In this document: in pieces, positions 42,951-57,821 of the stretch
Numbering within the stretch: position 1 is the first letter of the stretch
Layout of the letters: every line of letters starts with the position of its first letter
Assembly (NCBI GenBank): GCA_947631765.1
Contig: CANRMP010000006.1
Coordinates: 1 to 64,000, forward strand
Length of the DNA stretch: 64,000 nt
Direction of reading: 5' to 3'
From: an uncultured Clostridia bacterium
Lineage (GTDB): Bacteria > Bacillota > Clostridia > Oscillospirales > CAG-272
Position numbers and translations under genes: made by a program
The notes under the pieces: model-generated
The model's database searches: none
What the model was told of the DNA's origin: nothing
Seen by the model: the letters and a program-made list of their open reading frames with translations, nothing else

Positions 42951-44273
42951 ATGGAACAGCAAACCTTGTTTTCGGATGCAAGCGTCAATATGCAGCCTCT
43001 CGCCTCTCGGATACGTCCTCAGAATCTTCAGGAATTTTGCGGGCAGGAGCACCTTCTCGGCGAAGGTAAAATGCTGAGAAGAATGATAGAAAGCGACAAT
43101 ATCTGCTCCATGATCTTTTGGGGTCCCCCCGGAGTCGGAAAAACCACTCTTGCCCGTATCATCGCAAAAAGCACTAAGGCGAGCTTTATTGATTTTTCCG
43201 CCGTTACCAGCGGTATAAAAGAAATAAAACAGGTAATGGAGCAAGCGGAAAACAGCCGCGCCTTCGGCGAAAAAACCATCCTTTTCGTAGATGAAATACA
43301 TCGCTTCAACAAGGCTCAGCAGGACGCCTTCCTTCCCTTTGTCGAAAAAGGAAGCATTATCTTAATAGGCGCCACTACCGAAAATCCCTCCTTTGAGGTT
43401 AACGGCGCCCTGCTCTCCCGCTGTAAGGTCTTCGTCCTCCATGCGCTTAAAACCGAAGATATTATAATACTGCTTAAAAACGCCATTAAAAACCCCGCGG
43501 GCTTTGGCAATCAAAATGTGAATATCTCAGACGAGCTTATCGAAATTATCGCCGTGTTCGCAAACGGCGACGCCCGCTCCGCTCTCTCCACCCTCGAAAT
43601 GGCTGTGCTTAACGGCAATGTTGAAGGAAATCAAATAACCGTTACAAAAGAGACTATCGAACAGTGTACGTCTAAAAAATCCCTCCTGTATGATAAAAAC
43701 GGCGAGGAGCATTATAACTTAATCTCCGCTCTCCATAAGTCAATGCGCAACTCCGACCCGGACGCTGCTGTCTATTGGCTTGCCCGTATGCTCGAAGCGG
43801 GCGAGGACCCGCTGTATATCGCTCGCCGCGTTACAAGATTTGCCGCCGAGGATGTGGGACTCGCCGACCCGAGAGCCCTCGAGCTTTCTGTCGCCGCCTA
43901 CCAGGCTTGTCACTTTATCGGTATGCCCGAATGCTCCGTCCACCTGACAGAAGCCGTCGTCTACCTTTCCCTCGCGCCTAAATCAAACGCCCTCTATGTA
44001 GGCTACGAAAAAGCTAAAAAAGACGCTCTCACCACAATCGCCGAACCTGTCCCCCTCACCATCCGTAACGCTCCGACCTCACTCATGAAAGAACTTGACT
44101 ACGGTAAGGGCTATCAGTACGCCCATGACTTTAAAGATAAACTCACAAATATGCAATGCCTGCCCGACTCCCTCGTCAATAGAGAATACTATCACCCCAC
44201 CGACGAGGGGCTCGAAGCTCGCTTCAAAACCCGCCTTAACGAAATAAAAGAGTGGAAAAAATCACAAAAATAA
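42951..44273 (+). CDS. rarA: RarA replication-associated AAA ATPase
   Basis: RarA/MgsA protein of 440 aa that acts at stalled replication forks, related to RuvB and clamp loaders. The Walker A is GPPGVGKTTLARI, Walker B FVDEIHRFN, and the arginine-finger motif LLSRCKVF follows. The C-terminal tetramerisation part has YQACHFIGMPECSVHL. AAAGGGG sets the ATG at 42951. A long hairpin follows the stop at 44278. Confidence 0.94.
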   Translation: MEQQTLFSDASVNMQPLASRIRPQNLQEFCGQEHLLGEGKMLRRMIESDNICSMIFWGPPGVGKTTLARIIAKSTKASFIDFSAVTSGIKEIKQVMEQAENSRAFGEKTILFVDEIHRFNKAQQDAFLPFVEKGSIILIGATTENPSFEVNGALLSRCKVFVLHALKTEDIIILLKNAIKNPAGFGNQNVNISDELIEIIAVFANGDARSALSTLEMAVLNGNVEGNQITVTKETIEQCTSKKSLLYDKNGEEHYNLISALHKSMRNSDPDAAVYWLARMLEAGEDPLYIARRVTRFAAEDVGLADPRALELSVAAYQACHFIGMPECSVHLTEAVVYLSLAPKSNALYVGYEKAKKDALTTIAEPVPLTIRNAPTSLMKELDYGKGYQYAHDFKDKLTNMQCLPDSLVNREYYHPTDEGLEARFKTRLNEIKEWKKSQK

Positions 44274-44277
44274 CATC

Positions 44278-44325
44278 AAACAAATCACCACCCCGCGTCA
44301 GTCACCGCAGGGTGGTGATTTGTTT
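44278..44325 (+). terminator. rarA terminator-like hairpin
   Basis: AAACAAATCACCACCC and GGGTGGTGATTTGTTT are perfect 16-bp arms directly after the rarA stop. The T-run is short (TTTGTTT is within the arm), so it may act with the next hairpins. Confidence 0.7.
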
Positions 44326-44344
44326 GGCGGAGCACGGCTTGCGG

Positions 44345-44374
44345 TAAGGAATATTTCGCGCTCTGCTGAGCGCG
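44345..44374 (+). repeat. extra copy of hairpin 1 of the 44.4-kb element
   Basis: TAAGGAATATTTCGCGCTC with its hairpin CGCGCTC-TGCT-GAGCGCG repeats, 41 bp upstream, the first hairpin of the larger element at 44386. The two 5' ends are nearly the same. Confidence 0.7.
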
Positions 44375-44385
44375 AAGACAGGGGC

Positions 44386-44640
44386 TAAGGATATTTCGCG
44401 CTCTTCGGAGCGCGACGGGGGCTCTGCCCCTCTACCCCGCCGCCTTTTGTAAAGGCGGAAAAACATACGTACGCTCGTACAGTGCGTGCTCGCGCTTTGC
44501 GCCGTGAGTCTGTCTCACTACGTTCGACAGATAGCGGTCAGTCTGTATGCGCGCCGCTTCAAGTAAGCTTGAGCGGCGCGTATACACCCCGACCTGCAAA
44601 CCTTTCGGTTTGCCTCACGGCGCAGAGCTTAAATTTGCTG
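44386..44640 (+). repeat. structured ~250-nt element, copy 1
   Basis: A chain of hairpins. H1 is CGCGCTC-TTCG-GAGCGCG, H2 GGGGCTCTGCCCC and H3 CCGCCTTTTGTAAAGGCGG. Then comes a closed multi-branch unit, with closing stem GCGCCGTGAG/CTCACGGCGC. Inside it are TCTGTC/GACAGA, a long arm CGCGCCGCTTCAAG/CTTGAGCGGCGCG and GCAAACC/GGTTTGC. The copy at 45265-45505 is an inverted homologue, with many stems changed on both sides. Contains no likely gene. Confidence 0.75.
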
Positions 44641-45264
44641 TAACATTAAAACCTCGTGCGACTTGGTTGTTGCTTACGAAATGTGTCGTAAAGCGGAACG
44701 TGTTTGAAAATCTGTACTTGAAATATATAGCAAATTTTTCGCTTCGTGCGGACTTTATGTAACCCATATCGCCTATTTTTCTATCATTTCTTGCCTCATC
44801 TTCCCCCACGCTCCCCCGCCGCGGGACGTGGGGGAAGAGGGGGCAAGCCGTAGTAGGGGAAATAAAGGGAGCGGGAACAAAGAACGTGCAATCGCAACAT
44901 TTTTAGCTATAAACGAACGGCTACAGCTGCGTGAGAGAAAAATTATACAAACCGTAGCCGAAAAAATAGCCGGGACGGCAATGAAAAATCAGCACAATCA
45001 ACCGTTCCCACAATCATTAACAAGACGTGCGGCGAGGGGGGAAGAAAGGCAAGGCGTTGTCAGAAAAAGTCACTTAACTGCGAGCACACAAAAAGCGTTT
45101 TGGGCGCCGTCAATGTTAAAAAAAGCATAAAAAAGTAAGTCATATCGTTTTCTCCGGCACATTAAGTACAACGAACAAACGATATGACCGTTTTTCAAAT
45201 ATTATACAGCTGCATTTTGCTTTACCTTCGATTTCCGAAAGCATAACACATTTTTTTGCAATTT
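44641..45264. other. noncoding block between the inverted elements
   Basis: About 620 bp. It holds a hairpin CTTCCCCCACG/CGTGGGGGAAG (44800-44837) enclosed by CTTGCC/GGCAAG. CGGCTAC/GTAGCCG lies near 44921-44964. GTCATATCGTTT/AAACGATATGAC (45139-45188) is followed by a T-run. The ORF at 44828-45130 (100 aa, basic, no recognised motif) and the one at 44547 have no convincing ribosome site. I call neither a gene. Confidence 0.5.
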
Positions 45265-45505
45265 ACGCTTTGCGCCGGGAGCAAACCGTAGGTTTGCGGG
45301 TCGGGATATATATGCGGCGTGCAAGCTTGCTTGCTTCGCCGCACATATATCTTGACCGCTCTCCTCTGAGCGCAGCGATTGAGGAGAGCGGCGCAAAGCG
45401 CATCTTAGCACCATGCGAGCGCCCGTTTGTTTCTCCGGCTTTTCAAAAGCCGGCGGGGTCGAGGGGCTGAGCCACCGTCGCGCTCCGCAGAGCGCGAAAT
45501 CCCCT
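45265..45505 (-). repeat. structured ~250-nt element, copy 2 (inverted)
   Basis: On the minus strand it aligns with copy 1 over its full length. H1 is CGCGCTC-TGCG-GAGCGCG and H3 CCGGCTTTTGAAAAGCCGG. The closing stem is CGCTTTGCGCCG/CGGCGCAAAGCG. The inner stems are CTCTCCTC/GAGGAGAG, GATATAT-GTGCGGCG/CGCCGCATATATATC, and GCAAACC/GGTTTGC. The loops ATTTCGCGCTC and AGCGGTCA are shared with copy 1. Paired changes in H3 and the inner arms indicate selection on structure. Confidence 0.75.
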
Positions 45506-45550
45506 TCAGCTACGCGCCGCAGCTGCACTAAACCCCTTCATCAGCAAATC

Positions 45551-45576
45551 GCCACAGGGACTCCTGTCCCTGTGGC
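45551..45576 (-). terminator. terminator-like hairpin after GH115
   Basis: GCCACAGGGAC and GTCCCTGTGGC are perfect 11-bp arms with a TCCT loop just after the GH115 stop. No clear T-run follows on the minus side. Confidence 0.55.
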
Positions 45577-45603
45577 GGCAATGTGTTTTTTTGGTGGAAA
45601 GGT

Positions 45604-48600
45604 TTATTTCCAGCTTGATTTAGTTGTCAGGATGAGGCGGTCAATGACAAGACCGTCCTCGCGTCCCATGAGGGTAATTGTATGTTCACCCGACTGTGAG
45701 ACGGTGAAGGTACCGATTTTCTTCCACACGAAGCCTGCGGTATCCTTAAAGTCGTTAGTTGTTTGAGCATTTTTGCCATCCATTAAGACGATTATTGAGT
45801 CATCCGAGTCGCTCTGGCACTTAACCAAGGCGAAGAGGTTATAGGTACCTGCCGGAAGGTCGACCTTATAGTTAAGCTTAGCCGTTTTGCCGGTATTCGG
45901 ATCGGTGCTTGTATACTGGCTGTTTCCGTTAGGTCCGAAGAAGAGCGCGGAGCCGTAGATACCGCCGGTTTCCATCCAATGGAGCTTTTTATCGTCGGCA
46001 CTGGCGGTATTTGAGGCAAATTCGGTATTATTCAGCGCGGATTCCGCTTCGATAATCACGTCGCCGTTTTCGTCTGGTGCAAATGCAGAAGCTCCGCCGA
46101 CCTCAACATCATTATACTTGCGAATTTCAATTGCCGACACAATCCAGCTGCCGTCAAACGACAGGGTGACTGTACCGTCTGTTGATTCAATGATAAAGCA
46201 ATACTCGGCGGTATTGCCCGCGGCGACGTTAATTCCGGTTATGACGGAGGTACCGTTTGCAAGAACGTTCATATTGACAGCCGAAATTCCGCTTGCCAAG
46301 CGGTCGCCGACAGCGATTGTAAATATATACTTACCTGCGCCGGAGAGCACAAGACGAAGCTCTGCAGGATTATCCGAATAGATAAAGCCCTGATCTCTGT
46401 CGGAGGTACCGCTTGCCGACCTCCTTTCGGCTTTGAGCGAATCGAAGCCGGAGAGCCAGCCGTATCGTTTTGTTCTGATCGATTCGGTAAGGTTATCGAC
46501 ACCGAAGTATCCGCTGTGTGCTTTGTCGACGTCCGAGGTCAAATCGAAATTCAGATCGTCGGAAGCCGGCTCATACTTAAGCCCTTCAAAGGAGAGCTCG
46601 GGCGGGCAAGGCAGAATTTGATCTTCAATATCGGTGACGGTCTGATAGGTTTCGGGCGCACCCAGACGGGAGGAGAGAGCGCCGAGACTCTCGTGGAGAA
46701 GCTCGATTTTGTCAAACGCCATTCCGGCGTCCGCCTGATATATTCTAAGCTCATGCCAGCCGACGGTATCGAAGCTTACCGAAAAGCTCAGCTTTTCGAT
46801 GTTATATCTCACACCGTAGCTCCATTTGCTTGAGCCGCCGGTATCCACGGTGGTATTTCCGCGTAAGGTAGCAACGTTGCCGCCGTCCACCGAGTAGACT
46901 ATCCGACAGGTTTTGGCACTTCTGCCGTTTGTCGTCCCCTCATTCAGAGTGGGAATACGGAATAGAGTGCCGTTATATTTGCCGGTTGTGGTTACATAAA
47001 TTTGGTAGACAAGATAAGCGGATTTTTCGGAATAATCCGAGCCGATATTTGTTGACGAAGCGGAGGTGTCGGGGAAAACCTTCATGGAGCCGCCCGAAAC
47101 GCCGAGATTTGGCATGAGCTTCCATTCGCAGTCGCCGACCGCAACACTGTCGGTGTAGTGCTCCGCTTCAATGGAGATAATGCCGTTTTCCTCAAAGTAG
47201 CCTTTGAACCTTGTCTCGTTTGAGGGGTCTACCAGCGCGGAAATAAGCACGGGAATTTTTGTCGTATGCCCGTAGTTGTCGGAGATTATTATATCGCCCG
47301 AATAGGTGCCGGACAGCTTTTCTTTGTTAACTCCGACCCATATTCTTGTTTCCACATTGACGCTTCCGAGATATTCAACCTTTCCGCCCGATGCACTGCC
47401 GGTCAAAAGCTTGCCGTTTTGATCGTAGAACGAGAGCGCCTCATCGGCGGTCAGCTTGAAATCATAACCGGTATTGCCGAGCGAAAAGATGTCAATAAAG
47501 CGCTTTGAGGTTGTAAAAGAGGTAAAGCGCAGCTCTGCGGGAATGCCGCCGGTCTGCCCTTCGGACGCCGCCTTGACGCCGTCTTCGGCAAGATCAGCCG
47601 AGATATAGGTCACCGAGGGCTTGGAGGCGATAGGGGGAGAGCCGTTTGCTGTGGTATAGGGATTGAGAATCCCTCTCCACTTGCCGTTTTGCAGTGAATT
47701 GTAGGTTTTGATGTCTGCGGCGATTTCGGCAAACGCCTCTTCGGAGAGAGCGGCGTAGGCGTTAATACTTGCAAACCGCCCCTGACTCATGGCAAGCTGA
47801 TTTTTTTGCGCATAAACGTTAAGCTCAAGGGTGAGCCTCAGACAGCGGGTCTTGTAGTAAATCAGTTCATAGAACGAATCTTTCCTGATATCGGGCAGCG
47901 CATCATATATTTTTGCGGCGACCGCCTCAGCCCGCTTTGCGCGGGTTATCATTATTTCCGCCTCATCGCCGAAATTCACCAAGCTGTACTCGACGCCTTC
48001 ATTGTAGCCCTGATAATCGGGCTTGTAGGCAATGGCAACCTGATAATATTCGGTCATGGCGGAGGCAATTTCTTTGGCATCGCTTTCGGAAAGCGCAAAA
48101 TTCGTACGGCAGAAGGACGCAGTGAAGTCTTCAAGATTCTCGGGGCTAAAATCGTCGACAGACCACGCAAGCTTCAAAAAGAAGTCCATGGGTAATTCGG
48201 CGGGCTTAAGATCGCCGACGTTGAGTATCCAAAGGTCGTCCGAACCCGCATTGTACGCCTTGTTCATTTCTTCGTAAATCTGAGAGAGAGGGGTGCTGTC
48301 TATCCACAGATAGCTGCGCGGAACTCCCCTGTAGGAGACGTGATAATAAACGCCAAAGCCCGCATATGTGTTAAGCTCGGAGGCGTTCGGAAGCTGGCGA
48401 ACATATCCGTAGTTGTCGTCGCTGTACTCAATAATGCAGTCCTCGGGAAGCGATATGTCATATTTGTAGTATTCAGCCGCTTCCTTGTATGGACAGTAAC
48501 ATGTGACAAAATGCTCTTCCTTTCCGGTTTCCTCGGACAGGATGCTTTCGTACTTTTCAAGAATTGCAAGCTGCGCTTCTATAGCCTTTTTGACATAAGC

Positions 48601-55185: not shown

Positions 55186-56085
55186 ATGAACGCAATCGAA
55201 ATTCGGGGGCTCAGCAAGAGCTTCCGCGGGCTGTATGCCGTGGACAACCTGAACATGACTGTTCCCGTGGGAGCCATTTACGGCTTCATCGGAGAAAACG
55301 GCAGCGGCAAATCCACCACGGAGAAGCTAATCTGCGGCCATCTGGTGCCGGACAAGGGCAGTATCAAATTATTCGACAGGCCGTACACGGACGCGGGGGT
55401 GCGTGTCCGTGTGGGTGCGCTCATTGAGAACACCGGCTGTTTTCCAAATTCCAGCGTGTGGGACAACCTGATGATGCAGGCCATCAACCTGGGACTTTCC
55501 GACCGGGCGGGCGAGATCGACCGGGTACTGCGGATCGTCCGTATGGAGGATAACGCAAAGCTGAAATTCAAAAAATGTTCTCTCGGCATGAAGCAGCGCA
55601 TCGGCATCGCCATGGCCCTGCTGGGCGACCCCGCCCTGCTGATTTTGGACGAGCCTATCAACGGCTTGGACGCCGATGGCATGAGAATGATGCGGGAGAT
55701 ACTCGTGGACATCACCCAACAGTATGGCTGCACCGTACTCATTTCCTCCCACATCTTAGGCGAGCTTGAGAAGATCGCCACCCACTACGGTATTATCCGA
55801 CAGGGCAAAATGATCCAAGAGCTTTCCGCAAAGGATTTGGAAGGCCGTGCAAAGGTGTTTACCTCGCTGAAAACACAGAATATGCAGGGAGCTTTCGGAT
55901 TCCTGCGGCAGAAGTTTCCCGATGTTCGGGCAGAGGACGGCTATATCCGTATTTACGATGTAGATGATACGGAGGGCATTGTGGGACTTTTGATGCAAAA
56001 CAACTTCCCGGTCAGAGAAATCAAAAAGAACAAGATCGGTCTGGAAGAATACTACATCGAATTGATGAGTAAAAAGGAGGCGTGA
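55186..56085 (+). CDS. ABC transporter ATPase 1 (BcrA-like)
   Basis: ATP-binding subunit of 299 aa. Walker A is GENGSGKST, the signature LGMKQRIG, and Walker B ILDEPINGLD. A C-terminal extension of about 80 residues, as in BcrA/NatA types, ends in LEEYYIELM. GAAGGAGGC sets the start at 55186; the ORF track begins 67 codons early. It precedes a permease and a paralogous pair. Such exporters often give resistance to peptide antibiotics, which is inference here. Confidence 0.92.
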   Translation: MNAIEIRGLSKSFRGLYAVDNLNMTVPVGAIYGFIGENGSGKSTTEKLICGHLVPDKGSIKLFDRPYTDAGVRVRVGALIENTGCFPNSSVWDNLMMQAINLGLSDRAGEIDRVLRIVRMEDNAKLKFKKCSLGMKQRIGIAMALLGDPALLILDEPINGLDADGMRMMREILVDITQQYGCTVLISSHILGELEKIATHYGIIRQGKMIQELSAKDLEGRAKVFTSLKTQNMQGAFGFLRQKFPDVRAEDGYIRIYDVDDTEGIVGLLMQNNFPVREIKKNKIGLEEYYIELMSKKEA

Positions 56086-56918: not shown

Positions 56919-57821
56919 ATGAATGCAATCGAAATCAGAGGACTTACAAAAAACTTTGGCAGTAAGCAAGCCTTAAAAGGGCTGAATATGACCGTCCCCG
57001 CCGGCGCGATCTACGGCTTTATCGGGGAAAACGGCTCCGGAAAATCCACAACCGAGAAGCTCATCTGCGGTCTGATGCCGTCAAGCGGCGGCACCATCAA
57101 GCTCTATGGGCGCGATTACACGGACCCGGATGTGCGGGCAAAGATCGGCGTGCTGATCGAAGCGCCCGGCTGTTTCCCAAACATGAGCGTATGGGGCAAT
57201 ATGATGCTGCAGGCGGCAAACCTTGGCCTGAAAAAGCCGGAAGAAGAAATCGGCAAGATCCTGAAGCTGGTCCGCATGGAGGGCGCGGCCTCCAACAAAT
57301 TCAAGAACTGCTCCCTCGGCATGAAGCAGCGCATCGGCATCGCCATGGCGCTGCTGGGCGACCCGGCCCTGCTGGTGCTGGACGAACCCATCAACGGTCT
57401 GGACGCGGACGGGATGCGGATCATGCGGGAGGTGCTGACGGACATTACGAAGGATAAAAACCGCACCGTGCTGATTTCTTCCCACATTCTGGGCGAACTG
57501 GAAAAGATCGCCACACATTACGGGATCATCCGGGGCGGCAGGATGATCGAAGAAATGACCGCCGAAGAATTGGACGCGGGCTGCCGCACCTATATCTACC
57601 TGCAAGCGGCAGAGAGGAACCGGGCGAAGGCGCTGCTGTCCTGTAAATACGCCCGCGTGGAGGAAGATGAAAGCGACTATATCCGTGTGTACGACGAGGC
57701 ACGGGCGGAGGAAATCGTTTCCTATCTCTATGAAAGCGGCATTACGGTCAGCGAGATCGGTACATCGAAAATCGGTCTTGAAGAATACTACATAGACCTC
57801 ATGAAAGAAAGGAGGGCGTGA
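56919..57821 (+). CDS. ABC transporter ATPase 2 (paralogue of ATPase 1)
   Basis: A 300-aa ATPase closely similar to the one at 55186. It has the same MNAIEIRGL start, Walker A GENGSGKST, signature LGMKQRIG, Walker B VLDEPINGLD and end LEEYYIDLM. The pair looks like a tandem duplication of an ATPase-permease unit. The start at 56919 follows AAGGAGGTGGCAGGC. It likely works with the permease at 57825, perhaps as a heterodimer with ATPase 1. Confidence 0.92.
   Translation: MNAIEIRGLTKNFGSKQALKGLNMTVPAGAIYGFIGENGSGKSTTEKLICGLMPSSGGTIKLYGRDYTDPDVRAKIGVLIEAPGCFPNMSVWGNMMLQAANLGLKKPEEEIGKILKLVRMEGAASNKFKNCSLGMKQRIGIAMALLGDPALLVLDEPINGLDADGMRIMREVLTDITKDKNRTVLISSHILGELEKIATHYGIIRGGRMIEEMTAEELDAGCRTYIYLQAAERNRAKALLSCKYARVEEDESDYIRVYDEARAEEIVSYLYESGITVSEIGTSKIGLEEYYIDLMKERRA

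Follow-up and report, generated by a model that had tools for sequence, protein, structure and literature searches.

REP sequences are short (20–40 bp) palindromes with a GTAG or CGTC tag at one of their ends; in general, most of them occupy gaps between genes that are convergent or unidirectional, and the CGTC REPs have no dedicated transposase (PMC3733652). The window analysed here, a 64,000-nt stretch of the genome of an uncultured Clostridia bacterium (G000; contig CANRMP010000006.1, positions 1–64,000), contains an inverted pair of multi-hairpin elements. This pair is probably an inverted composite of a dispersed, apparently mobile, non-coding intergenic palindromic repeat, BIME-like or MITE-like in kind. 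A first-pass annotation, made from the letters alone, had listed a MITE-type or REP-type mobile element among its readings, and this reading is favoured by dispersed intergenic copies, presence/absence differences between sister species, inverted dimers and tandem modules.

The composite, comprising two inverted copies and an interior, occupies positions 44354–45536 (no strand assigned) and is repeated at the loci L032, L031 and L033 with identities of 94%, 82% and 67%, respectively. Copy A, a full element, covers 44386–44640 on the + strand, as defined by alignment (279.5 bits to model R1). It matches the reverse complement of copy B, the inverted full element at 45260–45505 (− strand; alignment, 260.8 bits to R1), over the whole length with 75–76% identity, including an ungapped match of 217 nt at 75%. 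The local alignment score of the two copies is 249, against 37 for the best of 200 shuffles, so the end-to-end alignment reported in the first-pass annotation holds; of its limits for copy B, the outer end at 45505 stands, and the inner end, given as 45265, is corrected to about 45260. The part copy of the first hairpin that it placed near 44345 is real and corresponds to an extra hairpin 1 at 44355–44376 (+ strand), a 9-pair hairpin seen in the sequence as a tandem unit outside copy A. On the other side, comparison of composites delimits a variable outer array of copy B at 45506–45536 (− strand). The same comparison defines the non-coding interior (44636–45259, no strand assigned), which varies more from one composite to the next than the copies do. 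Within it, a GC-rich hairpin (44785–44850) is short in the window and L032; in L031 and L033 an additional palindrome is nested in it. Elsewhere in the window, the segments 55564–55841 and 57297–57574 form a 278-nt direct repeat (77% identity, spacing 1733), probably representing duplicated genes.

Each copy has the same order of parts, hairpins 1–4 followed by a closed three-arm unit. Folding of copy A places hairpin 1 at 44396–44415, hairpin 2 at 44417–44431, hairpin 3 at 44440–44458 and the three-arm unit, with the closing stem GCGCTTTGCGCCGTG / CACGGCGCAGAGC, at 44494–44628 (all on the + strand); the three-arm unit of copy B folds at 45265–45401 on the − strand. Both copies fold with the long arm and with a three-arm unit that GCGCTTTGCGCCG / CGGCGCAAAGC closes, in agreement with the closed multi-branch unit with three arms described in the first-pass annotation. 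Compared with shuffled sequences, the RNA fold of copy A has z-scores of −10.0 (+ strand) and −8.4 (− strand), and copy B folded as DNA gives −7.5.

In the genome that contains the window (2.07 Mb, 98% complete), about 14 main loci were found by search, with 17 full copies and several partial ones. Four loci (the window, L031, L032 and L033) are composites of about 1.15 kb, in which two inverted copies surround about 620 non-coding nucleotides and hairpin 1 is always outermost. At three others (L034, L035 and L036), a full copy is paired with a damaged one in inverted orientation, and seven of the roughly 14 loci have a single copy. Copy A is 98.4% identical to its counterparts in L031 and L032, and such near-identical copies appear to be recent. 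Between the window and L031, copy B is 98.2% identical over the surviving part and the interior 83–88%; the structured copies are thus more alike between composites than the interior. The outermost hairpin arrays differ among loci in both number and sequence, with about four hairpin 1 units in tandem upstream at L039, and the repeated unit ranges from about 75 nt (module) to about 245 nt (full element). The bases adjoining hairpin 1 differ between copies, and no constant tetranucleotide tag is seen.

Sites were compared between species by locating orthologous flanking genes in the sister species G003. Empty sites, which the first-pass annotation had proposed to look for, were found: five orthologous loci (L033, L035, L037, L039 and L040) lack the element in G003, the gap at L040 being about 138 nt there and about 487 nt here. 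Both species have the element at three sites (L031, L042 and L034), and part of the presence/absence difference could reflect loss. The intergenic flanks of the empty sites are too diverged between the species for insertion junctions or target duplications to be read. The flanking genes, taken as the longest open frames chosen by the analyst, are convergent at no fewer than 10 of the 14 loci, and they are unrelated (RarA, GH115, YfbR, CotH, ThiI, EtfA, BipA and others), with no neighbouring gene common to the loci. With most copies placed between convergent, unrelated genes and the sites partly empty and partly shared, we regard the element as a dispersed, apparently mobile repeat and not as a gene-linked RNA. 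A separate observation concerns rarA and yfbR; in G003 yfbR comes after rarA at a distance of no more than about 1 kb (L160, L161), and the two genes are about 39 kb apart here. Each of them precedes a similar composite in direct orientation (window 44273–45604; L031 = G000:C6 82946–84767), which suggests that their separation is a repeat-mediated rearrangement.

The repeat extends beyond these two species. In the sister species, 16 or more full copies share the three-arm plan, and their arms differ from those in this genome; they consist mostly of one to three modules of hairpins 1–3, the three-arm core, a linker and then, in most copies, at least one right-hand module. Matches of a covariance model, to the outer hairpin module, occur in 51 of the 196 genomes sampled from the family. 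Most of the family matches read share only hairpins 1–3 (about 75–110 nt), frequently with a CAAAGAAAAAGCTTT hairpin in front of them; in several, a variable core comes next and then a hairpin with TTTTTTCAAAAA. Inverted pairs of opposite polarity occur in other genera. No Rfam 15 family matches the element above its gathering score. None of the outcomes that the first-pass annotation had listed as refuting it came about, as other copies exist, the covariation is significant and Rfam holds no match; weak matches to microRNA and speF families were rejected, their scores being far under the cut-offs. An exact degenerate DNA pattern searched in 84,980 species gave four matches, two in Clostridia and two in Thalassospira; the two Clostridia matches do not fit the model and were judged to be chance. 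The element is absent from the phages and viral contigs searched, and the plasmid search returned a single 34-base fragment from Anaerotruncus colihominis. The literature searched, with partial coverage, holds no description of the repeat.

As the first-pass annotation had noticed for the window pair, several helices are changed on both strands and still pair, and this is reproducible over the 17 copies: 18 of 56 pairs show double changes, against 2–5 when partners are slid as a control, and 63 double-changed cells compare with 20.7 ± 3.1 in shuffles. In alignment A1, for example, hairpin 2 reads GGGG/CCCC or CCAAGG/CCTTGG, and hairpin 3 reads GCC/GGC or GGC/GCC. Such significant covariation could indicate a structured ncRNA family (a small RNA or 3′ UTR element), in which transcription would yield the strand that reads from hairpin 1 towards the three-arm unit, with selection acting on its fold as RNA. 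The retention of the three-arm plan in G003 with different arms, the slightly better fold of the + strand and some G-T excess once two weak pairs are included would also agree with this, but we consider it unlikely. A strand test covered those pairs that are predicted for the two strands alike and are Watson–Crick in the majority, leaving out two weak G-U-majority pairs of this genome (alignment columns 31–47 and 99–108). Among these strand-neutral pairs, G-T and A-C cells number 10 and 11 of about 833 in this genome, and 16 and 8 of about 1182 in G003. Wobble pairs make up about 1.3% in the element with the two weak pairs set aside, a count that would rise with their inclusion, whereas G-U pairs amount to 7.6% in the tRNAs of this genome. 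Low wobble and the lack of a clear strand bias are suggestive, though not final, evidence against selection at the RNA level. Moreover, neighbouring genes are not shared among loci, many orthologous sites are empty, and no match to a sigma-70-like promoter is found in the composite or its interior. A hairpin inversion in G003 also speaks against an RNA: at the apex of the long arm, a segment of 45 nt is present there in two versions, each the exact reverse complement of the other. Both orientations are about equally frequent (L118–L124, L127, L162 and L172).

Template switching in replication yields loop inversion together with coordinated multi-base changes in stems (PMC8794818), and another report likewise gives loop inversion and multi-base coordinated changes as template-switching products (PMC8604942). 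Therefore, the compensatory changes are evidence of persisting palindromes and not of an RNA product. Because wobble is rare, strand asymmetry is not clear and a hairpin is exactly inverted, DNA-level template switching fits the compensatory changes as well as or better than RNA selection. Of the earlier proposal of conserved RNA or single-strand DNA structure, the RNA part is disfavoured on the same grounds; a single-strand DNA structure is possible. Another suggestion of the first-pass annotation, the ends of a larger element, would make the pair degenerate terminal inverted repeats of a transposon that lost its transposase, and the composite a decayed or miniature classical transposon. The inverted ends and repeated interior at four loci, and at least one rve-domain protein encoded by the genome, agree with this rather improbable explanation; however, no coding element lies between paired copies at any locus read, most copies are single, the hairpin number of the ends varies, and genome-wide copy lists place no copy beside rve or reverse transcriptase genes. 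Least probable, in our estimate, is a chromosome-architecture element under selection, for instance a site for gyrase or a nucleoid protein in the gap between convergent genes. Convergent placement and outer copies more conserved than the interior would be expected of it, but in the sister species many of the orthologous sites lack the element, and REPs too are found mainly between convergent and unidirectional genes (PMC3733652), for which reason placement alone is no evidence of function.

Returning to the dispersed mobile repeat, the enzyme responsible for its movement was sought in this genome. The Y1 transposase TnpA (PF01797) has no match in it at E ≤ 0.001 (98% complete), and neither RAYT nor the TnpB zinc domain (PF07282) was detected there; all three were consequently rejected as mobilisers. 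RAYT-like genes are present in the congeners G001 and G004 and in G014. One of them, at L089 (G004:C77), lies about 430 nt from a hairpin 1–3 module with another open frame between, a proximity that is probably due to chance. This genome has one reverse transcriptase match and two rve matches, one of which is under the curated cut-off. The frame of the sole reverse transcriptase match (L176; G000:C14:59710–60438) is interrupted by TGA.

We hypothesize that an enzyme acting in trans, and not recognisably encoded in this genome, recognises the sequence in the form of folded DNA, single-stranded or cruciform, and copies it in this state. Template switching at hairpins during replication may then keep the arms matched, invert hairpins and multiply modules in tandem, while gaps between convergent genes would tolerate the insertions. 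It is also conceivable, albeit unlikely, that a large modular palindromic family multiplies here with no dedicated transposase, by template switching or through a host DNA-processing enzyme recognising the three-arm core in its folded state. By-products of such multiplication would be the tandem end modules, hairpin inversions and inverted composites. The family represents a case in which strong covariation could be read as a new RNA though the pattern fits the maintenance of DNA palindromes. Its exact hairpin inversions and modular copies within one genome offer a compact natural test bed for the spread and pairing of palindromes without a visible transposase.

Compared with known systems, the element has hairpin ends similar to those of non-autonomous IS200/IS605 elements, and its relatives in other genera possess a left end (hairpins 1–3), a right end (the TTTTTTCAAAAA hairpin) and a variable core. 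Unlike IS200/IS605, its end modules grow in tandem, no tetranucleotide target was identified, and neither TnpA (PF01797) nor the TnpB zinc domain is found in this genome. MITEs are resembled in the non-coding composites with inverted ends that are present or absent between relatives; terminal inverted repeats occur in the four composites, whereas seven loci have a single copy. In contrast to MITEs, the ends consist of several hairpins and vary, and most copies stand singly. No matching full transposon that could be a parent was seen at the loci read. The element differs from REP and BIME in its size of about 245 nt (20–40 nt in REP), its several hairpins and its three-arm core. It falls outside the size and the GTAG/CGTC tag that define REP, and tens of copies at most were detected here, not over 100. 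GTAG-class REPs differ further, as no RAYT was detected in this genome and no RAYT linkage was found; like CGTC REPs, the element has no recognised dedicated transposase. We place the family, uncatalogued in the sources searched, with repeats of the BIME/MITE kind, as a variant outside the named families. With REP, BIME and REPIN it shares a dispersed, intergenic and palindromic nature, a location mostly between convergent genes, and an arrangement in tandem and inverted dimers.
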